From: Defluviitaleaceae bacterium
GTDB taxonomy: Bacteria > Bacillota > Clostridia > Lachnospirales > WRAX01
Assembly (NCBI GenBank): GCA_009784355.1
Contig: WRBU01000010.1
Location: 1-12,751 of the forward strand
Length of the DNA: 12,751 bases
Direction: 5' to 3'
This document shows, piece after piece, positions 1-12,751 of this stretch (position 1 is its first letter; each line of letters begins with the position of its first letter). Made by a program: the position numbers and the translations under genes. The notes beneath the pieces were generated by a model. It was not told the DNA's origin. It saw only the letters and a program-made list of their open reading frames with translations, and ran no database searches.

Positions 1-450
1 AACATTACCGCCAGCGGCATAATTCACCCTTGCCGCCTTTGTGGCAATAAGACTTTGGTGGTTTAAAATATTAAGCAGGGCGGTTTCTATAAAATTGGCC
101 TGCGCCATGGGGGCTTTTACCACTACCACGGGCTCGTGAGGAAAAAACACGCTGCCCTCACGCATGGCGTAAATGTCGCCCGTAAACTTAAAACCACGCA
201 AATACTCCAAAAAACGCTCATCAAACAGCCCCAAACCACGCAAATACGCAATGTCTGCTTCATTAAAGCGCAAATTTTCAATATACTCTGCAAATTGTTC
301 AAGCCCTGCAAAAACGCTAAACCCCCCGCCATCGGGATTTTGACGGATAAACATTTCAAAAACTGAAGGGTCCTCACTGCGCCCCGACAAAAAATACCCC
401 TGCATCATTGTTATTTGATAAAAATCTGTTAGCATTGTTAGGTTGTTCAA
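1..450 (-). CDS. pncB: Nicotinate phosphoribosyltransferase, N-terminal part (runs off the left edge)
   Basis: Catalyses the ATP-assisted joining of nicotinate and PRPP to give nicotinate mononucleotide, the entry step of NAD salvage in the cytoplasm. Reading the minus strand gives an uninterrupted frame to base 1 with family hallmarks: an N-terminus containing MLTDFYQITMMQGYF, then FEMFIRQNP, GGGFSVFAGLEQ and, near the edge, LLNILNHQSLIATKAARV. About 150 residues are present; full-length enzymes are near 480, so the catalytic core lies outside. I chose the TTG at 450-448 because AAAGGA (plus-strand 459-464) is then 8 nt upstream. An in-frame ATG at 459-457 touches that ribosome site, and another ATG at 435-433 is too far from it. 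Divergent from the zinc-ribbon gene at 585. Family assignment is secure; the start is uncertain by a few codons. Confidence 0.9.
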   Translation of the reverse strand, partial: MNNLTMLTDFYQITMMQGYFLSGRSEDPSVFEMFIRQNPDGGGFSVFAGLEQFAEYIENLRFNEADIAYLRGLGLFDERFLEYLRGFKFTGDIYAMREGSVFFPHEPVVVVKAPMAQANFIETALLNILNHQSLIATKAARVNYAAGGNV

Positions 451-489
451 TATTATCATCCTTTCGTGGTAGATGGCAAGAAGCTCCAT

Positions 490-519
490 CTTATACATTT
501 TACCATTACCCTATTGCAA
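490..519 (-). promoter_or_regulatory. Candidate promoter of the pncB gene
   Basis: On the minus strand TTGCAA (519-514) is followed after 18 nt by TATAAG (495-490), about 40 bp before the gene start. The -35 hexamer is its own reverse complement and is also used by the candidate promoter on the plus strand. Sequence match only. Confidence 0.45.
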
Positions 520-542
520 AATCAATGGGCATGTGGTACAAT
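514..542 (+). promoter_or_regulatory. Candidate extended -10 promoter for the zinc-ribbon gene block
   Basis: TTGCAA (514-519), 17-nt spacer, TACAAT (537-542), with TG at 534-535 forming an extended -10. It lies 42 bp upstream of the first gene of the block and is the only good sigma-A-like site in the gap. It probably drives the two zinc-ribbon genes and possibly the radical SAM gene. Sequence match only. Confidence 0.6.
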
Positions 543-584
543 ATTTGCTAGAATAAAATATTTACTTTATTAGGAGAGGATATT

Positions 585-1313
585 ATGAGTTTTTGTAATT
601 CTTGCGGCACGCAATTAGAGCCCAATGTGGCATTTTGTGCCAAATGCGGCAACAAAACAGAAGGCACGGCAAGCGCACCAGCACCACAGCCCGCCCCGCA
701 AGCAGGCGGCGTAACAGCAAACCCAAATCCAGCCGTTGACAAAATTAAAAATTTGGCCGGCGGTTTAAATGCTGGCATGGCAAAAGGTTTAATTATGGCT
801 CTTGCTGTTGTATTGGCGGCATTAACATTTAGTGCATGGCTCACTTTTGCCCAAGACCGCATCATGCCTAATGCAGAAAGAGTGCGTTTTTACCCCCACA
901 GCTTTTCAAGCCCCGTAATGCGTGAACACAACGCTTGGGAGCAAAACCAAACAAACCCCAACACAATTCAAAACAGACGTGATGCAATAGCACCCATTCG
1001 CGGTTTAAACACTGTTGCTACAATTCAACTTGTTGTTGGTATTATATCCGTTGCGGCTTTGGCTGCCTTCATGCTTTTATCAAGCCAAAAGCACCAACAT
1101 ACTGTAAATGCCGCTTTGGCCGGCTTTGGTCTTTCGGCTTTGATGACAATAGTTTTCATTATTTACATACTTGCAAACGGAAGCGACATTGGCGCTTGGT
1201 TCGGCGGAGCTCTTACTTCTGCCCGCCCATCTTTCTTTGCCATTGCGTCCTTGCTTGTGTCAATAGGCGGCTTTGTACTAACATTCTTAAAAAAGAGCGA
1301 GCTTAACAACTAA
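585..1313 (+). CDS. Zinc-ribbon membrane protein of unknown function
   Basis: The 242-residue protein begins with a four-cysteine zinc ribbon (C4, C7, C18, C21; two CxxC knuckles, the second ending CGNK). A Pro/Ala-rich linker (about 28-50) follows. Hydrophobic stretches at about 68-90, 143-165, 174-197 and 215-235 predict four membrane helices, with a polar loop (91-140) between the first two. N-terminal zinc ribbons on small membrane proteins are common in Bacillota, but their role is mostly unknown. The start has GGAGAGG five to six bases upstream. It is 17 bp from the next gene, which also carries zinc ribbons, so the two are almost certainly co-transcribed. A third related ribbon protein starts at 3609. 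I do not recognise a named family for the membrane part. Confidence 0.85.
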   Translation: MSFCNSCGTQLEPNVAFCAKCGNKTEGTASAPAPQPAPQAGGVTANPNPAVDKIKNLAGGLNAGMAKGLIMALAVVLAALTFSAWLTFAQDRIMPNAERVRFYPHSFSSPVMREHNAWEQNQTNPNTIQNRRDAIAPIRGLNTVATIQLVVGIISVAALAAFMLLSSQKHQHTVNAALAGFGLSALMTIVFIIYILANGSDIGAWFGGALTSARPSFFAIASLLVSIGGFVLTFLKKSELNN

Positions 1314-1330
1314 ATAGGGGAGGCGACAAA

Positions 1331-1816
1331 ATGAGCAATCTTGCAAAGGTAAAAAGCGACATAGCCGACCTTAAAGACAAAAAACAGGCTCTTACACAGG
1401 CGGTGCAAAACGACATTGACGCAGTGCAAGCAAAAATTGACAAAGACTTCCACGATATTGGCAAGTCCGCCTACGACTTGCACACAGGCGGAAATGCGTC
1501 AATGGACACACTGGCTTCCCGCTTCACAATAATTGATGAATACAAAACAGACCAAAAAGAAAAAATGGCAAAAATTGCCGAAATAGCAAGCCGTTATGAC
1601 GAAGAAATTCAGCTTTTAGAAAAATTAGTAGAAGATGCGGGTCCAGAGGCGTTTTGCTCGTCATGCGGCAAGGCATACGCCCTTGGTACTGACGTATTTT
1701 GCGCCGACTGCGGCAACAAACTGCCAACAGGCAACGAAAAAAACTGCGCAGGTTGCGGGCTTTCATACACCCCGGGTCAACAAGCCTTTTGCGCAAACTG
1801 CGGCAACAAACACTAA
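1331..1816 (+). CDS. Coiled-coil protein with two C-terminal zinc ribbons
   Basis: 161 residues and soluble. Residues 1-100 are rich in Lys, Asp, Glu, Ala and Gln in heptad-like patterns, indicating long helices or coiled coil (about 5-40 and 70-103). The C-terminus holds two tandem four-cysteine ribbons: C109/C112 with C124/C127, and C139/C142 with C154/C157. Both close with CGNK, as in the upstream protein. GGGGAGG sits at about 1317-1323 ahead of ATG. The close spacing and shared ribbon type suggest it works with the membrane protein encoded at 585-1313, perhaps as a cytoplasmic partner, but that is inference. No catalytic motif is visible. It could be a scaffold or a regulator. Confidence 0.85.
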   Translation: MSNLAKVKSDIADLKDKKQALTQAVQNDIDAVQAKIDKDFHDIGKSAYDLHTGGNASMDTLASRFTIIDEYKTDQKEKMAKIAEIASRYDEEIQLLEKLVEDAGPEAFCSSCGKAYALGTDVFCADCGNKLPTGNEKNCAGCGLSYTPGQQAFCANCGNKH

Positions 1817-1830
1817 TTTCAACAGTCATC

Positions 1831-1854
1831 GTAGGGGCGAGCAATGCTCGCCCG
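1831..1854 (+). repeat. GTAG-hairpin palindromic repeat, copy 1
   Basis: GTAG followed by a perfect 8-bp stem (GGGCGAGC with GCTCGCCC), loop AAT, then G. It lies in the 57-bp gap between the zinc-ribbon gene and the radical SAM gene, 10 bp before the latter's ribosome site. The transcribed hairpin could affect read-through or translation. No U-run follows, so it is not a classic terminator. Confidence 0.85.
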
Positions 1855-1873
1855 TTTGCATTTTGGAGAACAT

Positions 1874-3448
1874 ATGAAAAAAGTAATAATCCTAGCAATA
1901 AACTCAAAATACATCCACTCATGCCTAGCCGCATGGGTGCTATCCGCCGCCGTCAAAAAATTCTGCAGCCACACCCATAACGTAAAAGTAATAGAAGCAA
2001 ACATAAACCAAACCATAGACGAAATTTGTAGGGGCGACCATTGGTCGCCAGCTCCCGACATCGTCGCAATCCCCACCTACATCTGGAACGCAAAAAAACT
2101 ACCATATATATTGGAAGAAATACGCAAAAAACTACCAAACACAAAAATAGTCCTAGGCGGCCCTGAAGCAGAGCATAACGCAAATTTTTGGTTGCAAAAC
2201 GGCGCAGACGCAGTCCTAAACGGCGAAGGCGAAAAAACCCTCCCCGCCTACCTCGTAGGGGACGCTGCATCACGCGTCCCGCATCCCGACTGCGACACCC
2301 AAATTGACCCTTTCACAGATGAGTATTTAACAGCCCTAACCGGCAAAATAGCCTATATAGAAACCTCACGAGGATGCCCTTTCTCCTGCGCTTACTGCCT
2401 TTCAGGCGACGACCCCGTGCGGTTTTTTGACATCGAAACCGCAAAGGGGCAACTGGCAAAACTTTCCAAAGCAAATGTGCGGGTGATAAAATTTGTAGAC
2501 CGCACATTTAACTGTAATGCAGCACGGGCGTACGAGCTTATAGAATATATAATGGGGCTTAACAGCGACAAATGCTTTCATTTTGAGGTCGCCGCAGATT
2601 TGTTTGATGATGCTACACTTAGCCTGCTTGCCACAGCCCCCTCGGGGCTTTTTCAAATAGAAGCAGGCATACAGAGCTTTTTTGCCCCAGCCCTTTCGGC
2701 ATCCACCCGAAAAACTAACCTTGAAAAAGTGGCAAAAAACATCCGCCGTCTGCTTGCGGCAGGTAACATACACATCCATCTTGACCTTATTGCGGGACTG
2801 CCAAACGAAACGCTGACAGAATTTGAAAATAGCTTTAATTCGGCATTTGACCTAGCACCCCATAAACTCCAACTGGGCTTTCTAAAAATGCTGCACGGCT
2901 CCGCCCTCCGCAAAAATCATCCCGAAATTATTTTTGACGCACACCCGCCGTATCAAATAATAAAAAGCCCGTGGATGAGCGAGGCAGACTTAAACACCCT
3001 GTACCTAACCGAAGATGCCCTGCAAAACACCCAAAACAAAAGCCATTTTTTGCGCACAATAGGTTATGCCATGGGGGCAGGTGGACTTTCGCCCTTTGCC
3101 TTTTTTCGCCGCATGGGTGAGAGCTTTCAAAAAAAGGGCATGGCTTTGGAAGCCTATGCCGAAAAAATATTTAATTTTTGCAAAGCCCTTGACGGCGTGG
3201 CAAAAGATGCCTTAATGGAGCATATGATAATAGACTGGATGGAAATGGTAAAAGGAGTAAACATGCCGCCTTTTCTGAAAATAGCCACCAAACAGCAACA
3301 TACCCACGCAATAAACCAAGCCGAAACCGCCCTAAACAGAAAAATTCGCCGCAACGAAGCCGCCATCCTACCCTCAGGGCAACACATTTTCGTAGATGCC
3401 CAAACACGCCACCCCATAACAAAACTATACAAAACAACGCTCTCGTAG
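1874..3448 (+). CDS. B12-binding-domain radical SAM protein (DUF4080-type)
   Basis: The 524-residue protein has an N-terminal Rossmann-like cobalamin-binding-type domain (about 1-125: VIILAINSKYIHS, PDIVAIPTYIWNA, IVLGGPEAE, NGEGE). A radical SAM core follows with its [4Fe-4S] motif C168-x3-C172-x2-C175 in TSRGCPFSCAYC. The last ~150 residues resemble DUF4080. I see no DxHxxG motif, so cobalamin, if bound, would not be held base-off by that histidine. The family is probably enzymatic, but its substrate is unknown to me. I chose the ATG at 1874 (GGAGAA at 1865-1870). An in-frame ATG at 1844 lies inside a palindromic repeat and has no ribosome site. Two repeat copies lie in frame, encoding residues 52-59 and 128-137, and a third provides the stop codon. 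Confidence 0.88.
   Translation: MKKVIILAINSKYIHSCLAAWVLSAAVKKFCSHTHNVKVIEANINQTIDEICRGDHWSPAPDIVAIPTYIWNAKKLPYILEEIRKKLPNTKIVLGGPEAEHNANFWLQNGADAVLNGEGEKTLPAYLVGDAASRVPHPDCDTQIDPFTDEYLTALTGKIAYIETSRGCPFSCAYCLSGDDPVRFFDIETAKGQLAKLSKANVRVIKFVDRTFNCNAARAYELIEYIMGLNSDKCFHFEVAADLFDDATLSLLATAPSGLFQIEAGIQSFFAPALSASTRKTNLEKVAKNIRRLLAAGNIHIHLDLIAGLPNETLTEFENSFNSAFDLAPHKLQLGFLKMLHGSALRKNHPEIIFDAHPPYQIIKSPWMSEADLNTLYLTEDALQNTQNKSHFLRTIGYAMGAGGLSPFAFFRRMGESFQKKGMALEAYAEKIFNFCKALDGVAKDALMEHMIIDWMEMVKGVNMPPFLKIATKQQHTHAINQAETALNRKIRRNEAAILPSGQHIFVDAQTRHPITKLYKTTLS
2028..2051 (+). repeat. GTAG-hairpin repeat, copy 2, inside the radical SAM gene
   Basis: GTAG plus a 7-bp stem (GGCGACC with GGTCGCC), loop ATT, outermost pair mismatched. 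Read in frame it encodes C52-R-G-D-H-W-S-P59, between the segment IDEI and PDIVA where relatives are expected to have an ordinary helix-to-strand linker. No stop codon arises in this frame. Confidence 0.75.
2255..2281 (+). repeat. GTAG-hairpin repeat, copy 3 (variant), inside the radical SAM gene
   Basis: GTAG plus stem GGGACGC with GCGTCCC and a longer 8-nt loop. In frame it encodes V128-G-D-A-A-S-R-V-P-H137, in the linker between the B12-binding domain and the radical SAM core. It differs from the other copies in stem sequence but keeps perfect pairing. Confidence 0.65.
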
Positions 3449-3468
3449 GGGCGGTTTTTAACCGCCCG
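3445..3468 (+). repeat. GTAG-hairpin repeat, copy 4, overlapping the radical SAM stop codon
   Basis: GTAG plus stem GGGCGGTT with AACCGCCC, loop TTT. The TAG of its GTAG (3446-3448) is the stop codon of the preceding gene. Forms an inverted pair with the copy at 3514-3537. Confidence 0.88.
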
Positions 3469-3513
3469 ACATGCTTCGGATAGGGGGCATATTTGTCAAA
3501 TTGTAAGCTCCAA

Positions 3514-3537
3514 CGGGCGACTACAAGTCGCCCCTAC
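3514..3537 (-). repeat. GTAG-hairpin repeat, copy 5 (minus orientation)
   Basis: On the minus strand: GTAG, stem GGGCGACT with AGTCGCCC, loop TGT. It is the inverted partner of copy 4, with a 45-nt unique spacer between them. Like other minus copies it is followed on the plus strand by AAA. Confidence 0.88.
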
Positions 3538-3547
3538 AAAATCCGTA

Positions 3548-3576
3548 TTGACAACTCGCATTTTTCAATATAAAAT
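3548..3576 (+). promoter_or_regulatory. Candidate promoter for the zinc-ribbon/Lgt-like pair
   Basis: Perfect -35 TTGACA (3548-3553), 17-nt spacer, TAAAAT (3571-3576), 32 bp before the ATG at 3609. It begins ten bases after repeat copy 5. Sequence match only. Confidence 0.65.
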
Positions 3577-3608
3577 AACAATTACAACAACTTTAAGGAG
3601 GGCTAACT

Positions 3609-4010
3609 ATGAATTTTTGCAGTGCTTGCGGTCAACAATTAGAGCAAAATGCAGCCTTTTGCGCAAATTGCGGCAAACAACCCGCAAACAACCCGCAAAC
3701 TAACGCACCACATATGCCGCATCACCACCTCACACCCACACCGTCGGCAGAACAACCAGGTCAAAGCCTTGCTTTGGCATCCATGGTGCTAGGTATTGTC
3801 GCATTGGTAGTTAGCTATACACCGCTTTCTTTGTTTTTAGCAATTCCCGGCGTTGTTTTGGCGGCAATGGCAAAAAGAAATGGGAACAAAAGCGGCATGG
3901 GTACGGCAGGTTTGGTATGCTCCATAATTGCACTTGCGATTGGCTTTTCGTTTTTTGTGGCGTGCAGCAGCTCGCTTGCTTGTTTTAGACCATTTTATTT
4001 TTGGTGGTAA
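3609..4010 (+). CDS. Zinc-ribbon membrane protein, DUF4190-like
   Basis: 133 residues. The N-terminal zinc ribbon (C4, C7, C18, C21) has the same cysteine spacing as the protein at 585-1313 and a very similar sequence, so the two ribbons are homologous. A His/Pro/Asn-rich linker (24-50) leads to hydrophobic segments at about 54-69, 73-88 and 99-118. The pattern SLALASMVLGIVAL followed by a Gly-rich turn and GTAGLVCSIIAL resembles DUF4190 membrane domains. A near-perfect ribosome site AAGGAGGG (3595-3602) decides the start. The stop is 3 bp before the next ATG, so translation is probably coupled to the Lgt-like gene. Function unknown. Confidence 0.85.
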   Translation: MNFCSACGQQLEQNAAFCANCGKQPANNPQTNAPHMPHHHLTPTPSAEQPGQSLALASMVLGIVALVVSYTPLSLFLAIPGVVLAAMAKRNGNKSGMGTAGLVCSIIALAIGFSFFVACSSSLACFRPFYFWW

Positions 4011-4013
4011 AAA

Positions 4014-4790
4014 ATGCTGCCTTATCTTGAAATTTTCGGGCAGTCATTTTCTACATACGGCATTATAGGCATTGCCGCCTTGGTAATAGCCGCGGCAACA
4101 GCCAGCTTGCGTGCAAAAAAATACAATTTAACATTATCTGACATCTTGCTTGTAACAACATTTGCAGGGGGCGGCATTTTTTTAGGCGGCTCTCTTTTGT
4201 ATGCCTTGGTGCAGTTGCCCCATTTGTCTAATATTATAGAGCACACGGGGGGAAGTTTTGGGGACACTCTTTCCCTGCTTTTTGGCGGCATGATTTTTTA
4301 TGGCGGGCTTTTTGGCACGCTTTTGGCAGTGGCAATATACGCAAAATTTATGAAACAAGACATCAAAAATATTTTTCGGTTTGTAATTCCCGTTTTTCCT
4401 TTGGCTCACGGCATAATGCGCCTTGGCTGTTTTGCCGTAGGGTGTTGTTATGGCATAGAGCATAGCACCCTAGGGCTTGCCTTTACAAATTCGCCCATAG
4501 CACCAAATGACACACCCTTTATACCAGTACAACTTTACGAATCCGCACTAAATTTCGCAATTTTCGCCGCAATTTGGGCGTATTCAAAAAAAGAAAGGCA
4601 TCCCGTGCATTTAATTTGCTTTTACGCCATGCCGTACGCAATAGGCCGCTTTGCCCTTGAATTTTTACGTGGCGACGCACAAAGAGGGTCAATTTTTGGC
4701 ATATCAACATCCCAATTTATAAGCATCGCCGTATTAATATGCTGCACGGCAGCACTAATTTTTACTAAAAAACGCATCACTCGCAGCTAA
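4014..4790 (+). CDS. Lgt-family membrane protein (prolipoprotein diacylglyceryl transferase-like)
   Basis: The 258-residue polytopic membrane protein (about seven helices) has the Lgt layout: an N-terminal YGIIGI helix, GGMIFYGGLFG (91-101), HGIMRLGCFAVGCCYG (132-147), PVQLYES (171-177) and a C-terminal R212-x3-E216-x2-RGD. Lgt adds diacylglycerol from phosphatidylglycerol to the lipobox Cys of prolipoproteins. However, the Lgt signature G-R-x-G-N-F-x-N-x-E is altered: R136 is kept, but Asn and Glu positions are Cys, and the His of the HGG motif is Tyr96. The GCCYG form is known in Lgt-like paralogues, so this may be a second, divergent enzyme and not the housekeeping Lgt. Its coupling with a zinc-ribbon membrane protein is unexplained. 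Family assignment is firm; the reaction is not. Confidence 0.8.
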   Translation: MLPYLEIFGQSFSTYGIIGIAALVIAAATASLRAKKYNLTLSDILLVTTFAGGGIFLGGSLLYALVQLPHLSNIIEHTGGSFGDTLSLLFGGMIFYGGLFGTLLAVAIYAKFMKQDIKNIFRFVIPVFPLAHGIMRLGCFAVGCCYGIEHSTLGLAFTNSPIAPNDTPFIPVQLYESALNFAIFAAIWAYSKKERHPVHLICFYAMPYAIGRFALEFLRGDAQRGSIFGISTSQFISIAVLICCTAALIFTKKRITRS

Positions 4791-4846
4791 ACAAAAAATG
4801 CGGCTACAAAGTATACAACAACACGTTCAACCATTGTGTACCCAAC

Positions 4847-4870
4847 GTAGGGGCGGTTACCAACCGCCCG
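4847..4870 (+). repeat. GTAG-hairpin repeat, copy 6
   Basis: GTAG, stem GGGCGGTT with AACCGCCC, loop ACC. Forms an inverted doublet with the minus copy at 4917-4940 (46-nt spacer). Confidence 0.88.
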
Positions 4871-4916
4871 CTGGAGTTTACGCCTTGCAAAACACACCTT
4901 CAAACCAAAAGCATAG

Positions 4917-4940
4917 AGGGCGGCTACAAGCCGCCCCTAC
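4917..4940 (-). repeat. GTAG-hairpin repeat, copy 7 (minus orientation)
   Basis: On the minus strand: GTAG, stem GGGCGGCT with AGCCGCCC, loop TGT; the final G is replaced by T. Followed by AAA on the plus strand. Confidence 0.85.
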
Positions 4941-4966
4941 AAATCATCCACCATCTGCCGCAAAAC

Positions 4967-4990
4967 GTAGGGGCGGTTTTTAACCGCCCG
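4967..4990 (+). repeat. GTAG-hairpin repeat, copy 8
   Basis: Identical over all 24 nt to copy 4 at 3445-3468, which points to recent duplication. Possible doublet partner of the degenerate minus copy ending at 5096. Confidence 0.88.
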
Positions 4991-5054
4991 CACAAGCCTG
5001 CTTTTTACAATATCCATCAATTACTCAAAATAAAGTTATCAACCAACACAATAA

Positions 5055-5096
5055 AAGGCGGCTACTTGCGCACTTCGTGCGCTAGTCCACCCCTAC
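5055..5096 (-). repeat. GTAG-hairpin repeat, copy 9 (minus, expanded) and probable terminator of the GNAT gene
   Basis: On the minus strand GTAGGGG starts a longer imperfect hairpin: GGTGG...CCGCC on the outside, CTA/TAG next, and a perfect inner stem GCGCAC-GAA-GTGCGC. It is followed by TTTTATT. The run of T makes it a plausible intrinsic terminator for the minus-strand operon. It overlaps the last 11 codons and the stop of the GNAT gene. Confidence 0.65.
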
Positions 5097-5679
5097 AAAA
5101 CTCTTTATCAAATTCTTTCGCCGCATCACGATTTAATTCGGTATTGTAAATATCCGCTTCGATGAATTTGCCGCACACATCCGCAAGATACCCCTTCACA
5201 AGCTCCATACCCATAAAAGCGGGGTAGTTATTGCCGCCGCTGTCTGTTGTGCCAAATTCCTTTGCCTCCACAAACCCGAATTTAGGATAATATTCGGGAT
5301 GTCCAAAAAAGAAAATTGCACCATAGCCAAGCTGTTTTGCACAGTCAATAGAATGGCGCAGCAATGCCCCGCCAATGCCCATTTTCTGCATACTAGGCAG
5401 CACACTAATAGGGCCAAAATCTAACACATCAATTCTAGAACCGTCATCCTGTAAAATATGGGCATGGCTGTAAATAATATGCCCTACAATACGACCATCC
5501 AGCTCTGCAACAAAACTAAGTTCCATTATTCCGTCTTTTTGTCGCAAACAATGCACCATATAGTGCTCAAGCGGGCAACCAATTTGCGAACGCTCTATCC
5601 TTGCGGGGGTGTCAAAGGCGGCACGAGTAAGCTCCTCAACCGCCCTATAATCCACCGGCTGTTCAAGTCTTATAATCAC
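5062..5679 (-). CDS. GNAT-family N-acetyltransferase (YhbS-like)
   Basis: The 205-residue protein has the GNAT fold signature. It begins IIRLEQPVDYRAVEELTRAAF, has a central LSFVAELDGRIVGHIIYS strand pair, then LDFGPISVLPSMQKMGIGGALL with the acetyl-CoA pyrophosphate loop Q98-K-M-G-I-G-G104, and GHPEYYPKFGF (126-136), typical of COG3153/YhbS relatives. It would transfer acetyl from acetyl-CoA to an unknown amine. The start is GTG at 5679-5677, overlapping the HEPN stop codon by 4 nt (GTGA), which indicates translational coupling. Residues C195-K205 and the TAG stop are encoded by a palindromic repeat, so the native C-terminus was probably replaced or extended. Substrate unknown; it could be a passenger of the MNT/HEPN module. 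Confidence 0.87.
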   Translation of the reverse strand: MIIRLEQPVDYRAVEELTRAAFDTPARIERSQIGCPLEHYMVHCLRQKDGIMELSFVAELDGRIVGHIIYSHAHILQDDGSRIDVLDFGPISVLPSMQKMGIGGALLRHSIDCAKQLGYGAIFFFGHPEYYPKFGFVEAKEFGTTDSGGNNYPAFMGMELVKGYLADVCGKFIEADIYNTELNRDAAKEFDKEFCRGGLAHEVRK

Positions 5680-6059
5680 AATCCATCAATCCATTCATTA
5701 ACATATGCGGCAATATCAACCGCCTCTTGCGCCATTTCTTGCGTTAGCTCTATATTCATTGCCTTTGGGTAATTTGTATCAAAATAATAATCCGTTAATT
5801 TTGACAAGTCGCCTCGTACGGCTTTGTCATTTTTTTGACCAGCTATTTGACAAATTCTGTCATACAACCTACCAAGATTGTGAGTGGTAAAAAATCCAAA
5901 GTCGCTGGCATCTCCGTTTTGCTCGATGTAATGTTTCATGCGCTTTTCCACGCTTTGTTGACAAAACCTTCCGCATGGGTCGTAAAAGCCAAGAGAAAGA
6001 TTGCCCACGGCATACTCAAAATCTCGTTTAGAATACTCAAAATAACCTATCGTTGCCAC
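5676..6059 (-). CDS. HEPN-domain protein, partner of the adjacent nucleotidyltransferase
   Basis: 127 residues, all-helical HEPN fold of the COG2250 type: GRFCQQSVEKRMKHYIE (30-46) matches the usual (A/C)QQAxEK helix, then THNLGRLYD (59-67) and DYYFDTNYPKAMN (90-102). HEPN proteins next to MNT nucleotidyltransferases form toxin-antitoxin-like pairs in which the HEPN RNase is the toxin. Here I find no canonical R-x(4-6)-H motif; only R40-x2-H43 is present, and the RYP-like site reads TNYP. RNase activity is therefore doubtful. The start is GTG at 6059-6057, with AAGGGGTGG 4 nt upstream. It overlaps the MNT gene by 13 nt and the GNAT gene by 4 nt. Confidence 0.82.
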   Translation of the reverse strand: MATIGYFEYSKRDFEYAVGNLSLGFYDPCGRFCQQSVEKRMKHYIEQNGDASDFGFFTTHNLGRLYDRICQIAGQKNDKAVRGDLSKLTDYYFDTNYPKAMNIELTQEMAQEAVDIAAYVNEWIDGL

Positions 6060-6385
6060 AATACCACCCCTTCATCACGAATATATTTGTTCGTATCAAA
6101 AACGCCCTCTGCTTCAATCAAAGCCTGTTTGGTAGTGAAAAAAAGGTTTACTGTCAATCTGTCGTCAATTTCTTCACCAAGCCCACGTAACGCACCTCTT
6201 TGGGTGGGGGAAAGCTCTGTAGCCAAAACGGCAATGTCAATATCAGACGACAGCTTGGCTTCCCCACGAGCCTGTGAACCAAACAAAACCAAGGCTTCGG
6301 CATCAATGCCAAGCCTTGTAAAGCGTCTAACAAATTCGTCTAAAAACTCACGAACAAAGGGTTTTAAAGGTTTCAAGGGTTTCAT
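6047..6385 (-). CDS. Minimal nucleotidyltransferase (MNT, pol beta superfamily)
   Basis: The 112-residue protein carries the nucleotidyltransferase motif G36-S37-x10-D48-x-D50 in LFGSQARGEAKLSSDIDIAV. MNT antitoxins of MntA/HepT systems transfer AMP to the HEPN partner and inactivate it. The position where a third carboxylate is expected (VxLFF strand, VNLFFTT) is N80 and not Asp, so metal binding may be impaired. The start is ATG 6385-6383 with GGGGGGAT just upstream; the longer frame to 6448 overlaps the end of proS and lacks a ribosome site. The N-terminus carries a KPLKPLKP triplet repeat from a tandem 9-mer in the DNA. It starts 14 bp after proS and overlaps the HEPN gene. Confidence 0.85.
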   Translation of the reverse strand: MKPLKPLKPFVREFLDEFVRRFTRLGIDAEALVLFGSQARGEAKLSSDIDIAVLATELSPTQRGALRGLGEEIDDRLTVNLFFTTKQALIEAEGVFDTNKYIRDEGVVLWQR

Positions 6386-6399
6386 GCAATCCCCCCGTT

Positions 6400-7836
6400 T
6401 TAATAGGCTCTGCCCCAAACAACCAAAGTGTCGGACGGCTTGCCGCACACAAAGCAGGTGTCGCCAATATTTTCGCTGACAAATGGCATTAGGCGGCTTG
6501 TTGCTGTGGCTTGCTCCTTAACAGCGTCCTCGCAGGTACGCTCGCCGCACCACATTGCTTTTACAAAGCCTGCGGCTGTGTCCAATTTCTCACGCAACTC
6601 GTCTATGCTAAATGCCGTGTTGGTGCGGTTTTCACGGTTTTTGCGGGCTTTTTCGTAAATGGCTTTGTGAATGGTGTACAAACGCATTTGCACTTCCTCC
6701 ACCAAATTGTCCAAAGAAGCTACAATTTTCTCGCCATTATCACGAAGCACAAGTACGCATTGCCCTTTTTCAATGTCTTTTGGTCCAATTTCAAGGCGGA
6801 TAGGCACGCCTTTCATTTCATATTCTGCATATTTCCAACCCGGGGTACGGTCGGACACGTCAAGTTTAACACGGAAATGGCGGGAAAGCGTGTTTTCAAG
6901 CTCGTACGCCTTGTCAAGCACACCTTCTTTATGGGAAGCAATGGGTATTATAACCACCTGTATCGGGGCAATTTTTGGTGGCAGCACAAGTCCGTTGTCA
7001 TCCCCATGTGCCATTATAATGCCGCCAATTAAGCGGGTAGAAAGCCCCCAAGATGTTTGATGAATATGTTGTAATTTATTTTCTTTGTCGGTATAAGTGA
7101 TGTCAAAAGCCTTTGCGAAGTCACTGCCAAAATTGTGGCTGGTGGCTGTTTGCAATGCTTTGCCGTCATGCATCATGCTTTCTATTGTCAAGGTTTCCTT
7201 TGCTCCTGCAAATTTTTCCTTTTCGGTTTTGCGCCCTCGCAACACAGGCAGTGCCAAATAATTTTCAGCAAAATCTGCGTAAAGATGGAGCATCATAAGG
7301 GTGAATGCATCGGCTTCTTCGGCGGTTGCGTGTGCCGTATGCCCCTCTTGCCACATAAATTCACGGGTACGCAAAAATGGACGGGTGGATTTTTCCCAAC
7401 GCACAACACTGCACCATTGGTTAAACTTTTTTGGCAAATCCCTATGCGACTGTATTGCATTTGCAAAATACTCGCAAAACAGCACCTCGGAAGTAGGGCG
7501 GATGCAAAGACGCTCTTCAAGCTCCTCATCCCCGCCGTGGGTTACCCACGCCACCTCTGGCGCAAAGCCCTCTATGTGGTCTTTTTCACGCTGCAACAAA
7601 CTTTCAGGAATAAACATTGGAAAATACACATTCTCATTACCAACTGCTTTAAAGCGGGCATCAAGCTCCGTCTTTATCATTTCCCATATTGCGTATCCAT
7701 AAGGCAGCAAAATAACACAGCCCTTAACAGAGCTATATTCCACCAAGCCAGCCTTTTTTACCACATCTGTGTACCATTGCGCAAAGTCCACATCCCTGCT
7801 TGTTATCATTTCTACGTTTTTATCACCTTTTGCCAT
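6400..7836 (-). CDS. proS: Proline--tRNA ligase, archaeal/clostridial short type
   Basis: Charges tRNA-Pro with proline in the cytoplasm. 478 residues, the usual size of the ProS type lacking the bacterial editing insertion. Class II motifs are visible: RPTSE (113-117), motif 2 [16 protein letters not shown] (154-169) and motif 3 [19 protein letters not shown] (264-282). An anticodon-binding domain starts near 289 ([10 protein letters not shown]). The C-terminal domain has four likely zinc ligands (C430, C435, C461, C464) and ends GRAY, the Tyr terminus typical of this type. AGGAGAT eight bases upstream sets the ATG. It lies 33 bp after the CAP-domain gene and 14 bp before the MNT gene, all on the minus strand. 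No T-box leader is seen in the short gap, so the promoter is probably further upstream. Confidence 0.96.
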
Positions 7837-7869
7837 TGTTATTATCTCCTATTCAAATTATTCGCTTAA

Positions 7870-9303
7870 TTAAGGCATTGACGGGGCATTGGACATAAAC
7901 ATATACTGCCACGGCGTGCCTGCTTCGTTTAAAGACATACCCATGCCCACAAAACGGTGTTCGGGGTCAAGGATATATCTTGCGTGCCCCGGTGAATTCA
8001 TCCAGCCGTCCACAACAGCTTGCGGAGTGTGCCGCCCCGGGGTGAAGGCATTGCCGCCCCAGCGAAGGGTTGCCCCCATTGCCCTTGCCGTGTTTACGGA
8101 TGTTGTGTAAGGGCCTTGCGTATGGGCTGTGCCTGCACTTTGGTTTGTGCGGTAGTTCAAATGTATTAAAATTTGTGTGTAGTACCTTGCCGCCATGCTT
8201 AATATGGGGCAAAATTCTACGGGGCTTAAACCGTGCGCCACACGAACTTCACTAACAAGCCTTGACACCTCATGTTCAAAAGCATTTGCGCCGCCCAAAG
8301 CCCAATATTCTGCAATCCATGCGGCACGCTCTGCAGGTGTTGCTACCCTTGTTGTGTTTAGTGTAATTTGCGATTGCGGCAACTGCCCGGCATCTATCAT
8401 GTTATTAATTAAAAACGGGTTTATACTGGCGGCAACTTCCCCTGCGTGGGTGATAAAATAAATACCAAGCACACCAAAATGGTCGTGTATACCAAAAAGC
8501 TGAAAAACTTCGTTATAAGCAACACCAACCCCTGCCAAGTAAGGGTTTAATATAAAACCCTGAAAACGGTCATTTGACACAATTTCCTCAAACATAAGTT
8601 CCGGCGTAATATCACCAAATCTAAAATTGTGGTTACGTTCAATATGCAAATTGCTTGATGAGCCTGCCACCATGCCGCTTTCTATTCTGGCATGTACTCT
8701 TTGTGCAATTTCTTCGTTCCAAACAAGGGCAGACAGACCATTTGCTGTCCTTTCAGCATTAATCATGTTAAAAATGGCTTGCTCAAAAGCCCTAGGGTCG
8801 ATTGGCTCTGCTGGAAAATTCACCGCTACCAAACGGGTATTTTCGTGCCATTGCAAGTTAGCTCCTGCGGCATTTGCTATATCCGTAATACGTACAACAG
8901 TCGCGCCGTCAATATTAAAACTGTCAACACGCTGCCCCGCAACATAAGTTACAATGTCTGTATGCAGAACATTAAAAGCCACACTTCCCACGGGATGCAG
9001 GTTTTGCGGAACATATCGGGGCTGGGCAATGCTTGCACCGCGGGCAATATCCACCCGCCTTGTTTGCTCGTTAAAAGAAACAGTGAAGCCGTGCGCCTCC
9101 AAATCCCTCACCACAACAAAAGTTTGTGCATTAAAATTATAGCCCATTATAGGGACATCCTCAATGGTCACACGTATGTCTGTATGCAGCACCTGCCCCA
9201 CAATGTCGCCGACATTATTTGCATTTGCGTAAGCAATATCAATTCCAAAGACAATTACAGCGGCAAAAACAGCTATTGCAAAATTTCTTACAAAACGTCT
9301 CAT
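7870..9303 (-). CDS. Exported protein with two stalk (copper amine oxidase N-like) and two CAP/SCP domains
   Basis: 477 residues with an N-terminal signal peptide (RRFVRN, then a hydrophobic core at 8-25, probable cleavage near AYA-NA). Two tandem stalk-type repeats follow: VLHTDIRV...RRVDI (38-86) and VLHTDIVT...RLVAV (112-161), both of the copper-amine-oxidase N-terminal-like class common in clostridial surface proteins. Two CAP/SCP-like regions come next. The first is degenerate (about 172-290, INAERTANGLSALVWNEEIA). The second is more typical (about 342-470, with H394 and WMNSPGHARYIL at 434-445). The GENI-type motif reads GGNAF, so its Glu is missing. The protein is presumably extracytoplasmic; function unknown. 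ATG 9303 is preceded by GGGGAGG at an 8-nt gap; a TTG one codon earlier is less likely. Confidence 0.85.
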   Translation of the reverse strand: MRRFVRNFAIAVFAAVIVFGIDIAYANANNVGDIVGQVLHTDIRVTIEDVPIMGYNFNAQTFVVVRDLEAHGFTVSFNEQTRRVDIARGASIAQPRYVPQNLHPVGSVAFNVLHTDIVTYVAGQRVDSFNIDGATVVRITDIANAAGANLQWHENTRLVAVNFPAEPIDPRAFEQAIFNMINAERTANGLSALVWNEEIAQRVHARIESGMVAGSSSNLHIERNHNFRFGDITPELMFEEIVSNDRFQGFILNPYLAGVGVAYNEVFQLFGIHDHFGVLGIYFITHAGEVAASINPFLINNMIDAGQLPQSQITLNTTRVATPAERAAWIAEYWALGGANAFEHEVSRLVSEVRVAHGLSPVEFCPILSMAARYYTQILIHLNYRTNQSAGTAHTQGPYTTSVNTARAMGATLRWGGNAFTPGRHTPQAVVDGWMNSPGHARYILDPEHRFVGMGMSLNEAGTPWQYMFMSNAPSMP

Positions 9304-9333
9304 CAAATTTTCCTCCCCAAACTTTATCCCAAT

Positions 9334-9362
9334 ATTTTATCACAATCCGCAAAAAAATGCAA
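9334..9362 (-). promoter_or_regulatory. Candidate promoter of the CAP-domain gene
   Basis: On the minus strand TTGCAT (9362-9357), 17-nt spacer, TAAAAT (9339-9334), about 30 bp before the ATG. It could drive the whole minus-strand run through proS, MNT, HEPN and GNAT. It lies back-to-back with the riboswitch promoter, only 6 bp apart. Sequence match only. Confidence 0.5.
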
Positions 9363-9368
9363 TGCCTA

Positions 9369-9397
9369 TTGACAAGAGTTTTTTCGTGCTGTATAAT
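9369..9397 (+). promoter_or_regulatory. Consensus promoter of the B12 uptake operon
   Basis: Perfect TTGACA (9369-9374), 17-nt spacer, perfect TATAAT (9392-9397). Transcription would begin near 9404, about 16 nt before the first paired base of the riboswitch. A full-consensus promoter fits an operon controlled by termination and not by initiation. Confidence 0.85.
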
Positions 9398-9419
9398 GGA
9401 TGTACAACTAAATAATATA

Positions 9420-9545
9420 AAGCATGTTGAGGAATTGGGTGAAAGTCCCAAACTGTCCTGCAGCCGTGTTGGTCTTATTAGACTTTAGTCGGAATATTCA
9501 AATGCTTTAAAAACCTTGTAACTCTACATGGATATAGAGGAGGGA
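9420..9545 (+). ncRNA. Cobalamin riboswitch
   Basis: The closing stem AAGCAT (9420-9425) with ATGCTT (9502-9507) encloses the conserved cobalamin aptamer core. This includes GGGTGAAAGTCCC (9437-9449) and the segment ACTGTCCTGCAGCCGTG (9452-9468), which matches the conserved CxGxCC-GC-GTG signature, and a B12-box-like AGTCGG near 9487-9492. The 3' extension (9508-9545) could hold the loop partner of the kissing interaction. It binds a cobalamin form in the nascent RNA. It is followed by a terminator and B12 transporter genes, so high cobalamin should switch the operon off. I cannot say which cobalamin is preferred. Confidence 0.9.
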
Positions 9546-9586
9546 TGATACTAGCCGCTAGGCAATTCTATCGTGATTTTGACACC

Positions 9587-9612
9587 TCCCAAACCTCCGT
9601 TTGGGATTTTTT
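9587..9612 (+). terminator. Intrinsic terminator of the riboswitch expression platform
   Basis: Perfect 8-bp stem TCCCAAAC (9587-9594) with GTTTGGGA (9599-9606), loop CTCC, then six T (9607-9612). It sits between aptamer and btuF-like gene, as expected for ligand-induced termination. Its 5' arm is identical to aptamer bases 9446-9453, which suggests an alternative antiterminator pairing. Confidence 0.88.
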
Positions 9613-9616
9613 AATT

Positions 9617-9640
9617 GTAGGGGCGGCAACCTGCCGCCTG
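9617..9640 (+). repeat. GTAG-hairpin repeat, copy 10, in the B12 operon leader
   Basis: GTAG plus a 7-bp stem (GGCGGCA with TGCCGCC), loop ACC. It begins 5 nt after the terminator U-run and ends about 11 nt before the AGGAGG of the first gene, so it will be part of any read-through mRNA. Confidence 0.82.
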
Positions 9641-9665
9641 CCACTTAACATCAGGAGGAAAACAA

Positions 9666-10556
9666 ATGAAAAAGCTACTACCAATTCTAATTTTAACAGC
9701 AATATTTTTGGCAGCATGTGGAAGAACAGGAAACGACCACGAAAACGGTTATGAAAACGGCTATGTAAATGCACAAAACAACGAAAATATCGAAGACACA
9801 AGCCTTCGTATAGTATCCCTTGGGGCATCAAACACAGAAATTATCGAAGCCTTGGGACTAGCTCAAAACATCATTGCCATTGACGACGAGTCGCACGACG
9901 TGCCGAATGTAGCGCAAAATTTGCCGCAATTCAGCATGTTTGGACTTGATATGGAAGCATTAATAGCCTTACAACCCGACATCATTATTGTAATGGATTT
10001 TTTTTGGGGCAACAGCCCGCTTGCAATTATGTATGACATGACAGAGGTGATATACATACAATCAGCTACATCCATAGAAGATATTATGGCGGATATTACG
10101 ACAATAGGCGAGGCGTTAAATGCCAGTGCCGCCGCCGCACAGCTTGTTGCCCAAACCGAAGCCGGCATTGAGAATATTGTTGCAAAAGCCAATGACCTTG
10201 AGTCCGTTACGGTCTATTTTGAAATTGACCCCGCACCAATGTTTACTCTTGGGCAAGGCACGTGGCTTAACGAGCTTATTGAGTTGGCCGGCGGCATAAA
10301 TGTTTTTGCAAGCGAGTTTGGATGGATACAGGTAGCGGATGAAGCTGTGCTTGCGCTAAACCCCGATGTTATTATTGCAAACACAGGCTGGGCATCAGAC
10401 GATGTTTTGGGCGGTATGGAAAACCGTGCAGGCTGGCACGCCCTTTATGCGGTGCAAACGGGTCGCCTGCATCTTGTGGAAACAAATGCAACAAGCCGCC
10501 AATCGCACAATATTGCAAATGGTTTGGAGCAGATTTTTAATGCGTTGCACAATTAA
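9666..10556 (+). CDS. btuF: Cobalamin ABC transporter substrate-binding lipoprotein (BtuF-like)
   Basis: The 296-residue periplasmic-binding-type protein (PF01497-like) is predicted to capture cobalamin or a precursor outside the membrane and pass it to the permease. It has a lipoprotein signal peptide with lipobox LAAC (C18), then an Asn/Gly/Glu-rich flexible tether (19-42). The mature fold begins LRIVSLGASNTEIIEALGL, then LQPDIIIVMD, LNELIELAGGINVF and LNPDVIIANTGW, typical of the BtuF/FhuD class with its helix between lobes. Siderophore-binding proteins share this fold; the upstream cobalamin riboswitch makes B12 the preferred substrate. AGGAGG at about 9652-9657 sets the ATG. The permease gene overlaps its 3' end by 17 nt. 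Confidence 0.9.
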   Translation: MKKLLPILILTAIFLAACGRTGNDHENGYENGYVNAQNNENIEDTSLRIVSLGASNTEIIEALGLAQNIIAIDDESHDVPNVAQNLPQFSMFGLDMEALIALQPDIIIVMDFFWGNSPLAIMYDMTEVIYIQSATSIEDIMADITTIGEALNASAAAAQLVAQTEAGIENIVAKANDLESVTVYFEIDPAPMFTLGQGTWLNELIELAGGINVFASEFGWIQVADEAVLALNPDVIIANTGWASDDVLGGMENRAGWHALYAVQTGRLHLVETNATSRQSHNIANGLEQIFNALHN

Positions 10557-11571
10557 AAAAAATGCAAAAAAAAGAATACTGCTATCTGCCGCCATTGTCG
10601 CCGCAATTTTGATTTTGGCGGTGGGGATAGGCAGTGTTTTTGTCAACCCATTAGAAATTTTGCGCATAATAGGATATAGGCTTTTTGGCATAGACGGCGC
10701 AGATAATGTGTCCGCCACAAACACCGCAATAATATGGAATGTACGCTTACCTCGGGTTTTGCTCGCTTTTGTGGCTGGGGCTGCTTTAAGCGTTTCAGGT
10801 GCTGTTATGCAGTCCGTGCTTCGCAATCCCTTGGCATCATCCTTTACGCTGGGGGTTTCAAGCGGTGCGTCCCTTGGTGCGGCTTTGGTTATAATGCTTG
10901 GCATATCTTTTTTGCCCGTATTCACAATGCCTGCCGTGGGTTTTGCCTTTGCAATGGCAACCATGGTGCTGGTTATTGCCATTGCCTCAAAAATGGACAA
11001 AGGCTCACTGCAAAACAACACAATAATACTTTTGGGAATGGTTGCATCCCTTTTTGTAAACGCAATAACCACATTGCTAATAACAATGAATAGGGACTCC
11101 CTACAACGCCTAATTTTTTGGCAACTAGGCTCTTTTTCAGGGCAAGGCTGGCTGCCCATCGCAATTTTAACGCCCATTTTAGTCCTTGGTGTGCTGGCGG
11201 TTGTCCGCTACCACAAAGAAATGGACATAATGACATTTGGTGAAGAAACAGCAAAAACCATAGGTGTAAATATGTCACGCACAAAATGGGTTCTGCTTAT
11301 CCTCGCCGCATCCCTAACAGGCTCTACAATAGCCTTTGTGGGCATTATAGGCTTTGTTGACCTCATTGCCCCCCATATTGTACGCCGCATTTTTGGCGCA
11401 AGGCACAAACTGCTCATCCCTCTTTCAGCCATCTTTGGCGGCACTTTTATGGTGGCGGCAGACACAATAGCCCGCTCAATATCCCCCCCAACCGAAATCC
11501 CAATAGGCGTAATAACCGCCCTAATAGGTGCGCCGTTTTTTGCCTTTATCTATTTGAAAAATAGGAAATAA
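10540..11571 (+). CDS. btuC: Cobalamin ABC transporter permease (BtuC/FecCD family)
   Basis: The 343-residue polytopic inner-membrane protein matches the FecCD family (usually about 330-350 residues, ten helices). Hallmarks include the start of the core at NVRLPRVLLAFVAGAALSVSG, the motif RNPLASSFTLGVSSGASLGAAL, the cytoplasmic coupling region with FGEETAKTIGVN, and GIIGFVDLIAPHIVRRIFG near the C-terminus. It forms the transmembrane channel for the BtuF-like protein, with ATP hydrolysed by a BtuD-like subunit. I chose the ATG at 10540, inside the end of btuF with GGAG 10 nt upstream; an open frame extending back to 10366 lies within btuF and is not needed. Arginine codons favour CGC (9 of 16), unlike the next gene. 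Confidence 0.92.
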   Translation: MRCTIKKNAKKRILLSAAIVAAILILAVGIGSVFVNPLEILRIIGYRLFGIDGADNVSATNTAIIWNVRLPRVLLAFVAGAALSVSGAVMQSVLRNPLASSFTLGVSSGASLGAALVIMLGISFLPVFTMPAVGFAFAMATMVLVIAIASKMDKGSLQNNTIILLGMVASLFVNAITTLLITMNRDSLQRLIFWQLGSFSGQGWLPIAILTPILVLGVLAVVRYHKEMDIMTFGEETAKTIGVNMSRTKWVLLILAASLTGSTIAFVGIIGFVDLIAPHIVRRIFGARHKLLIPLSAIFGGTFMVAADTIARSISPPTEIPIGVITALIGAPFFAFIYLKNRK

Positions 11572-11576
11572 TCCAA

Positions 11577-11605
11577 TTGACTTTTTTTCTGGATTAGACT
11601 ATAAT
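11577..11605 (+). promoter_or_regulatory. Promoter of the ParA-like gene
   Basis: TTGACT (11577-11582), 17-nt spacer, perfect TATAAT (11600-11605), just after the permease stop codon. A near-consensus internal promoter lets the ParA-like gene, and probably the ATPase gene behind it, be transcribed independently of the riboswitch. Confidence 0.75.
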
Positions 11606-11618
11606 ATATACAGTATAT
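11606..11618 (+). promoter_or_regulatory. Operator-like palindrome at the ParA-like promoter
   Basis: Perfect inverted repeat ATATAC-A-GTATAT, directly abutting the -10 hexamer and covering the expected transcription start. This is where a repressor would act. It could also be chance in AT-rich DNA. Confidence 0.4.
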
Positions 11619-11637
11619 TTGGGAGGAGCTATCGACC

Positions 11638-12681
11638 ATGGCGAAAATAATAACTTTTTTCAATCACAAGGGCGGAGTGGGCAAAACGACACTATCCTAT
11701 AATGTTGCTTGGGGGTTAGCGAGTGCGGGTAAGCGTGTGTTGATGATAGATGCTGACCCTCAATGTAATTTAACTGAGATTACTGTTGACGACCATTATC
11801 TATATGGCGACGACCAAATAAGACTTATTGATAATTATAGTCCTGATTTTTTCTTGCAAAACAATGTTTACAACTATTTTTCGCCTTACATCTTGCCTGT
11901 TTTAGGCATGGAAAAACCCCGAATTGACACATATATTAAAAACGAAAACCTGCAATTATTAGCTGGATTTATTAGGTTTGCAGAACTAGAAAGCAGCATT
12001 GCACTCTCTGTAGCTAATGTTCCTGGTATGTCTCACATACCAAAATCGACATATGAGGCATTGCAGGAATTAACCAAGGATGTTGACTGTGTAATAATTG
12101 ATTTATCACCTGCACTTTCGGCTACAAATCAATTATTTTTGATGCTATCTGACTATTTCATTGTTCCTGTAAATCCAAGTATTTTTAGTCGTCAAGCGTT
12201 GATGAATTTGAGTGAGATTTTTAGAGATTGGAATAGAAAACTTTCTGGATTTGAAGTTTTTAATAGGAAGTCGAAGCCGCTTCCCAAAATGTTGGGCATA
12301 GTTTGTCAAAACTACAGACCTTATTCAAGAGCGGGTGAAGATAAAACAAAATCAGCAATACGTTTTGAGGAAAGATTGAATGATTTGAATAAATGTGCTA
12401 TTGAATTGGCAGAAGACTTAAATAGTTTTGGAATGGCTCTGACACCAAATGAGTTTTTGAATATTTTTGATGGATGCGTCCCATACCGAATAGCAAATAT
12501 TCCTGACTATAACCAGTTAGCACAAATATCAGAAATTGAAAAAATTCCCGTGGTAGGAATAGACCACAAAATTTTGAATAAAAAACCATACAATATGGCG
12601 ACACCTCAATATCAACAAAAACTGAAAGACTTTAAGGTTCAATGTGATATAATAGTTGGCGGTTTGAAAAAATTAATTTAA
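11638..12681 (+). CDS. Orphan ParA/MinD-type ATPase
   Basis: The 347-residue protein has the deviant Walker A box of the ParA class, K11-G-G-V-G-K16-T-T, followed by MIDADPQCNLT (36-46; D38 and D40-P-Q are typical of ParA/Soj) and a Walker B-like DCVIIDLSPALSATN near residue 150. ParA proteins form ATP-dependent dimers that bind DNA or membranes and position DNA or cell machinery. No ParB or centromere-like repeat is visible. GGGAGGAG lies 9 nt before the ATG, with its own promoter and palindrome upstream. Of 13 Arg codons none is CGC (6 AGA, 3 CGT, 2 AGG, 2 CGA) and the gene is more AT-rich than its neighbours, so it looks acquired. It separates permease and ATPase of the B12 transporter. 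It is not a CbiA/CobB amidotransferase: no glutaminase domain is present. Confidence 0.88.
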   Translation: MAKIITFFNHKGGVGKTTLSYNVAWGLASAGKRVLMIDADPQCNLTEITVDDHYLYGDDQIRLIDNYSPDFFLQNNVYNYFSPYILPVLGMEKPRIDTYIKNENLQLLAGFIRFAELESSIALSVANVPGMSHIPKSTYEALQELTKDVDCVIIDLSPALSATNQLFLMLSDYFIVPVNPSIFSRQALMNLSEIFRDWNRKLSGFEVFNRKSKPLPKMLGIVCQNYRPYSRAGEDKTKSAIRFEERLNDLNKCAIELAEDLNSFGMALTPNEFLNIFDGCVPYRIANIPDYNQLAQISEIEKIPVVGIDHKILNKKPYNMATPQYQQKLKDFKVQCDIIVGGLKKLI

Positions 12682-12698
12682 AAAATGGTGGATTTATA

Positions 12699-12751
12699 AT
12701 GCTCAAAGTTTGTAATTTAACCGCAGGCTACGGCGGTGCTGACGTAATAAA
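12699..12751 (+). CDS. btuD: ABC transporter ATP-binding protein, N-terminal fragment (BtuD/FecE-like)
   Basis: Only the first 17 codons are in the window: MLKVCNLTAGYGGADVI, the usual start of FecE/BtuD-type ATPases (MLxVxNLxxGYGG). The Walker A box would lie beyond the edge. GGTGGAT sits about 7 nt upstream of the ATG, and the gene begins 17 bp after the ParA-like stop. It would complete the btuF-btuC transporter. Assignment rests on this short N-terminus and on context. Confidence 0.75.
   Translation, partial: MLKVCNLTAGYGGADVI

Follow-up and report, generated by a model that had tools for sequence, protein, structure and literature searches.

GTAG-type REP hairpins of a Defluviitaleaceae bacterium and RAYT-like transposase genes that carry in-frame hairpin pairs

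GTAG repetitive extragenic palindromic (REP) elements, their doublets, intragenic REPs and stop codons borne by the GTAG were described by Di Nocera et al. (2013; PMC3733652). In-frame REPs within the genes of REP-associated tyrosine transposases (RAYTs, TnpA-REP) are predominant in subclass 2.4, generally between the HuH and Y motifs, according to the main text of Quentin et al. (2018; PMC6006769), which equates this subclass with Bertels group 4 and also ascribes to it an 8-residue insertion elsewhere and double-foot REPs. RAYTs of other groups are described as cutting at CT or CA dinucleotides and using GTAG (PMC8266576). Here we analyze a family of GTAG-plus-hairpin repeats in a 12,751-nt stretch of DNA from a Defluviitaleaceae bacterium (assembly GCA_009784355.1, contig WRBU01000010.1, positions 1 to 12,751; hereafter the window), together with the RAYT-like genes of the same genome. 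With a probability of roughly 0.87, these repeats are GTAG-type REPs, partly paired as REPINs, that are recognized, cut, and joined in trans by a RAYT with in-frame REP hairpins in its own gene.

The repeats share with the GTAG REP super-family (PMC3733652) the GTAG foot, a stem in the 6-13 bp range, a short loop, and compensatory stem variants, as well as doublets with GTAG outside, copies in genes, and GTAG serving as a TAG stop. Unlike that account, whose main text contains neither "clostridi" nor "firmicutes", the best named RAYT relatives here are presumably from Clostridia. REPSm of Stenotrophomonas has a similar layout, 23 nt made of GTAG and an 8-bp perfect palindrome with a 3-nt loop, although it is described as a group 3 REPtron and not as the group with REPs inside the gene (PMC8266576). 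As in REPINs (PMC3116915; PMC6006769), two inverted REPs round a short spacer form a repeated unit, which measures 92-99 bp here and 69-70 bp in six doublets of genome G046. The likeness to the subclass 2.4 TnpA-REP REPtrons (PMC6006769) is one of sequence features: the in-frame REPs in the transposase gene, the variable stretch after the HuH strand, and stem feet with mostly G-C at the first three pairs. Unlike subclass 2.4 as described in the main text of that paper, the genes studied here have hairpins at two sites, usually matched partners in inverted orientation on either side of the HuH-coding part, which seem to change in concert. Among the RAYT, REPIN, and REPtron papers listed by literature searches, most of them judged from the listing and PMC6006769 from its main text, none states a matched two-site in-gene pair. 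The window repeats belong to a known REP kind, and the concerted in-gene pair is a modest extension of it.

Abundance and pairing of the hairpins

Seven strict hairpins are present in the window, compared with none in each of 200 dinucleotide shuffles, and GTAGGGG words number 10, where the shuffles average 0.7. The assembly to which the window belongs, as contig 10, comprises 1.43 Mb in 257 contigs (68% complete). In this whole genome the pattern GTAGGGGCGN{6,16}CGCC gave 55 + 56 matches, with copies ending in CGCCCGCC counted twice, and the reversed-pattern control gave 1 + 0. A genome-wide motif count had been set beforehand as a test in a first-pass annotation of the window, and the outcome (111 matches versus 1) is far above the controls.

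A sample of 302 kb, consisting of the window and 40 contigs picked for holding matches (C176, C186, and the contigs of unlisted matches were left out), contains 123 GTAGGGG sites, 100 of them with a hairpin score of at least 5. The form with an 8-bp stem, a 3-nt loop and at least seven of eight pairs (G-T allowed) is found at 86 of the 123 sites, in 43 distinct versions. Since these 86 copies were selected by pairing, the paired share is no test in itself; the variety of the pairs is. Among the 43 distinct copies, pair 6 is GC in 30, AT in 8, GT in 2, TA in 1, and AC in 2; pair 7 is CG in 29, TA in 6, GC in 5, and AT in 3; and pair 8 is TA in 19, AT in 14, CG in 9, and TG in 1. Four standard pair types thus occur at each of pairs 6 to 8, and the two mismatched cells are both at pair 6. 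Pairs 2 and 5 are invariant; at the stem foot, pair 1 is G-C in 28, G-T in 14, and G-A in 1, pair 2 is G-C in all 43, and pair 3 is G-C in 41. The annotated picture of a nearly fixed outer stem and a covarying inner stem is right by these counts. A pyrimidine (C or T) immediately precedes GTAG in 83 of the 86 copies.

Inverted doublets of 92-99 bp with GTAG outside occur 20 times in the 302 kb, and their spacer ends recur; two of them (L036 and L057) are identical and stand at contig ends, so they may be one place. By crude open reading frame (ORF) calling, 68 of the 100 hairpins are intergenic, although such ORFs cover 87% of the sequence, while 21 are inside ORFs, 8 overlap an ORF end, and 3 are at an edge.

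Hairpin pairs inside RAYT-like genes

The first-pass annotation had also asked for a PF01797 gene accompanied by the same hairpin. It would likewise have been refuted if every genome with the motif had lacked a RAYT-like gene, an outcome that did not occur. Two genes of the window genome match PF01797 over the cut-off (C71:970-1305 and C79:2542-2850), and the hairpin pattern is found inside both ORFs. The in-frame 8-residue hairpin peptides are VGAASCRP and GRQDAAPT in one gene and VGAGIARP, GRAMHAPT, and VGATTGRP in the other. Across 14 aligned proteins, H81, H83, W131, and Q132 are invariant and R141 and Y152 nearly so. In an AlphaFold model of the second RAYT (14 rows; mean predicted local distance difference test score [pLDDT] 79.3, predicted template modeling score [pTM] 0.75), site 1 (residues 40-47) and site 2 (residues 95-102) are predicted to be coil except for residue 40, and the HuH histidines 81 and 83 are in the stretch between them. 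A Foldseek search with the model returned IS608 and ISDra2 TnpA; it also returned 4er8, a RAYT in complex with its REP hairpin, with an E value of 8.6e-7. The HuH, W, and Y motifs and the predicted Y1_Tnp fold are those of RAYT (TnpA-REP).

The in-gene hairpins were compared in 92 genes. Of these, 80 are named loci, the best 80 of 490 confirmed ones when ordered by similarity to an alignment in which most rows contain hairpin peptides; the other 12 belong to the family and were picked for visible hairpins. The set excludes the hairpin-free loci L080, L081, L082, and L094 as well as matches that were broken or partial. Under a rule starting from GTAGGG, at least two in-gene hairpins are found in 52 of the 92 genes (42/80 named, 10/12 family), one in 26, and none in 14; a stricter rule finds at least one hairpin in 51 of the 80 named genes. 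The order of the 52 pairs is (+,-) in 48, (-,-) in 2, (-,+) in 1, and (+,+) in 1, with a median start-to-start spacing of 165 nt (interquartile range 161-171). Judged from the printed frames and spacings rather than gene by gene, the HuH-coding part lies between the two hairpins. Apart from their first 8 bases, a gene's two hairpins have a likeness of 0.93, compared with 0.51 after shuffling of the partners (at most 0.60; none of 2000 shuffles attains 0.93). In the 44 genes with a nearest relative below 75% identity, the likeness is 0.92 within the gene and 0.66 between the same sites of gene and relative; the former is higher in 35 genes, equal in 6, and lower in 3 (Wilcoxon p 1.5e-7, the genes not being independent). 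The two hairpins of a gene match each other better than they match the same sites of the nearest relative and therefore seem to change in concert. The exceptions are a reversed site 1 in L078 and L089, a site 1 in another frame in L074, other spacings in L131, L138, L154, and L172, and an internal stop in L087. The 52 genes with matched but sequence-diverse hairpin pairs are candidate enzyme/substrate pairs for direct tests of recognition and concerted change.

In the main reading given at the outset, the in-gene pair would be the RAYT's standing substrate or source copy. A bolder reading makes the pair a working part of the system: a REPIN-like unit round the HuH segment that would serve the enzyme both as substrate and as source of copies, be kept matched by enzyme copying (concerted evolution), and tie the transposase to one REP kind, with the hairpin overwriting host sequence elsewhere. 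We put this forward tentatively and consider it rather unlikely as a whole; the matching might come about through recopying by the enzyme's own activity or through recombination. A substantial possibility, though one given less than even odds, is that the in-gene hairpins are passive, i.e., ordinary REP insertions that survive in surface loops without a role. In-frame REP insertions in RAYT and unrelated genes have been published, with the interpretation that loops can tolerate them (PMC6006769, PMC3733652), both in-gene sites are mostly coil of lower confidence in the model, and host genes too hold in-frame hairpins. Passive insertions, however, would be expected to vary in site, orientation, and kind, yet nearly all pairs have the same order and the narrow spacing given above, and within a gene the two hairpins resemble each other more closely than they do their counterparts in the nearest relative, in a set of genes partly chosen for hairpins or for likeness to carriers.

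It is improbable that the repeats as a whole are RNA elements (terminators, mRNA stabilizers, or regulators) that spread without a RAYT. G-T pairs among the stems, the intergenic majority, and one copy between a riboswitch and its gene would suit such elements, but this reading does not account for the matching of the pairs inside RAYT genes, for a doublet length that hardly varies, or for the copies within seven conserved genes; the repeats may still act as RNA as a by-product. Chance palindromes or compositional bias are rejected by the shuffles and the reversed control, and we give them next to no weight. 

In the main reading, that of GTAG-type REPs, the repeats are short elements without a transposase of their own. 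Folded into hairpins as single strands, they would be recognized, cut, and joined in trans by the RAYT, a Y1/HuH transposase; single copies and doublets alike would spread in this manner.

Hairpins and RAYTs in related genomes

Among 41 genomes, the hairpin pattern is present in 22 and a RAYT match to one query protein in 13. Genomes with at least 8 pattern matches were called hairpin-rich, a line set after the counts were seen; a RAYT match is found in 10 of 13 hairpin-rich and 3 of 28 hairpin-poor genomes (Fisher p 5.5e-5, relatedness ignored). GTAGGGG was absent from the RAYT loci of the three hairpin-poor genomes (L080, L081, and L082). Of the first 10 RAYT matches with organism names, 9 presumably come from Clostridia, judging by those names, and on this basis the annotated "clostridial" origin is plausible only.

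The in-gene 26-mer of the Gemmiger RAYT has 22 copies in that genome, two of which are located by position at the RAYT itself; the 8 other genomes searched have none. In Flavonifractor An10 (G041), the in-gene kind is at many of the matches listed, with a high control (34 + 30 vs 120 + 166), and in G046 (all of its 21 rows, control 0) the six short doublets have loops like or near the in-gene ATT loop. For four family genomes, in-gene kinds were compared with dispersed copies outside the RAYT genes in 302-kb or 400-kb samples of the own genome. Exact matches, followed by those within one change, are 15 and 16 of 31 copies for L087, 1 and 3 of 31 for L095, and 0 and 0 of 31 for L075; 2 and 6 of 29 for L074 and 2 and 2 of 29 for L089; 3 and 9 of 9 for L076 and 0 and 0 of 9 for L088; and 1 and 13 of 76 for L086 and 1 and 2 of 76 for L073. 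Kinds are also shared across genomes: the L087 kind has 7 exact copies among the 76 in G000, and for the L075 kind, G006 and G014 are a better fit than the genome that carries L075. An exact RAYT-to-REP match in every genome was found in part only: some RAYTs match well, others not at all.

Mobilization by a RAYT, which the first-pass annotation had suggested from the form of the hairpins, is supported by the co-occurrence, the exact dispersed Gemmiger copies, and the in-gene copies, while movement itself is inferred and a RAYT is not found in every hairpin-rich genome. Several observations weigh against it. No movement was seen, and recognition and cutting by the RAYT are likewise part of what we infer. 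The genomes counted are related, and the line at 8 matches was drawn post hoc. G003 (59 matches) and G008 (95 matches) yielded no such RAYT with the one protein or with alignment A1, which was run on 10 of the genomes; they have only other PF01797 proteins, which look IS200-like by score and length. G002 (22 matches) has only a 34-residue RAYT piece, the match is in pieces in the positive genomes G004, G016, and G033, and L094, the RAYT locus of hairpin-rich G014, has no GTAGGGG. In G043 (all of its 32 rows, control 0) the in-gene kind of L105 is found solely at the gene, and for L075 (G007) and L088 (G006) no dispersed match within one change was found in the 400-kb samples. The commonest dispersed cores of the window genome, GTTTTTAAC (15), GCAACCTGC (10), and GCTTGTAGC (9) of 76, differ from the exact kinds in its two RAYT genes, each of which has one exact copy; this mismatch could reflect the 68% complete assembly or loose recognition.

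Several RAYT copies (L079, L083/L092, L085/L093, L087, L091/L096, and L097) are seemingly broken by stops or frame breaks. In the RAYT frame of L084/L090 (G016:C3:91724-92413), site 1 is expanded into consecutive RDSIS/SSRNSIS-like units, as might result from in-frame multiplication of degenerate hairpins.

Hairpins in host genes and across the window

The 21 ORF-internal hairpins comprise 5 in the two RAYT genes, 3 on doubtful L034 ORFs, 1 poor one (L051:1880), and 12 in apparent host genes. The latter encode a radical SAM/DUF4080 protein (two hairpins, in the window), CopA, MnmG, and LigA and, with identity as read, PheT, PyrC, TopB, an rRNA methyltransferase, and others (L054, L068, and L069). 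Eleven of the 12 are on the sense strand, and 9 of the 12 are in the frame reading VGAxxxRP or near it. Length change was taken as the net number of residues at the hairpin relative to orthologues, with L046, L054, L068, L069, and hairpin 2255 left out of the comparison. Radical SAM hairpin 2028 codes for CRGDHWSP, where six orthologues have different residues and one fewer, i.e., +1 against each. The PyrC hairpin gives -2 to +1 against 11 orthologues (0 in 6; the N-terminally cut row L264 was left out), the PheT hairpin 0 to +4 against 13 (0 against same-genus G001), and the TopB hairpin +3 (G001) to +5 against 6 of 7 and +11 against L290. Against known structures, MnmG gives +4 (9hip), LigA +3 (1dgs) with a gap a few residues upstream, and CopA -3 (3j09) with +4 slightly upstream. 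A clean 24-nt insertion into host genes is unsupported, no length change being +8. The orthologues are distant (36-77% identity) and the places variable in length, so that overwriting of host sequence is a lead only. At the PheT hairpin stretch (L045:5426), the relatives L272-L280 have other peptides, e.g., KIQNSKLEN and ITNYELEK, which look as if coded by other short repeats, and a shared hot spot is possible.

All ten copies listed for the window are GTAGGGG sites at the positions and strands claimed; of the GTAG plus 8-bp stem and 3-nt loop said to be usual, 6 are perfect examples (1831, 3445, 3537-, 4847, 4940-, and 4967), 2 have an imperfect outer pair, and 2 are variants. The REP hairpin at 1831..1853 (+) has the loop AAT. 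Those at 2028..2050 (+), with a G-A mismatch in the outer pair, and at 2255..2280 (+), a variant with a 7-bp stem and an 8-nt loop, are in frame within the radical SAM/B12-binding/DUF4080 gene (1874-3448), the 2255 stretch of the protein being variable between orthologues. The TAG stop of this gene (ORF end 3448) is supplied by the GTAG of hairpin 3445-3467 (+), which forms with 3515-3537 (-) a REPIN-like doublet of 93 bp (3445..3537). Another REPIN-like doublet, of 94 bp (4847..4940; hairpins 4847-4869 (+) and 4918-4940 (-)), sits between an LGT gene (end 4790) and a GNAT gene (5062-5679, -). A longer doublet of 130 bp (4967..5096) consists of hairpin 4967-4989 (+) and a long imperfect hairpin at 5057-5096 (-, extent by eye) that overlaps the 3' end of the GNAT ORF.

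The REP hairpin at 9617..9639 (+), with a G-T outer pair, is flanked by a cobalamin riboswitch (9407-9550) and by a substrate-binding protein gene that starts at 9666. The riboswitch (RF01482, 54.9 bits) is followed by a terminator-like hairpin and T run (about 9580-9612, by eye) and then by the REP hairpin, downstream of which are the substrate-binding protein gene (9666-10556) and a FecCD permease. Elsewhere in the window, HEPN-domain and nucleotidyltransferase-domain genes adjoin at 5676-6448 (-), in the layout of a putative HEPN/MNT toxin-antitoxin pair.

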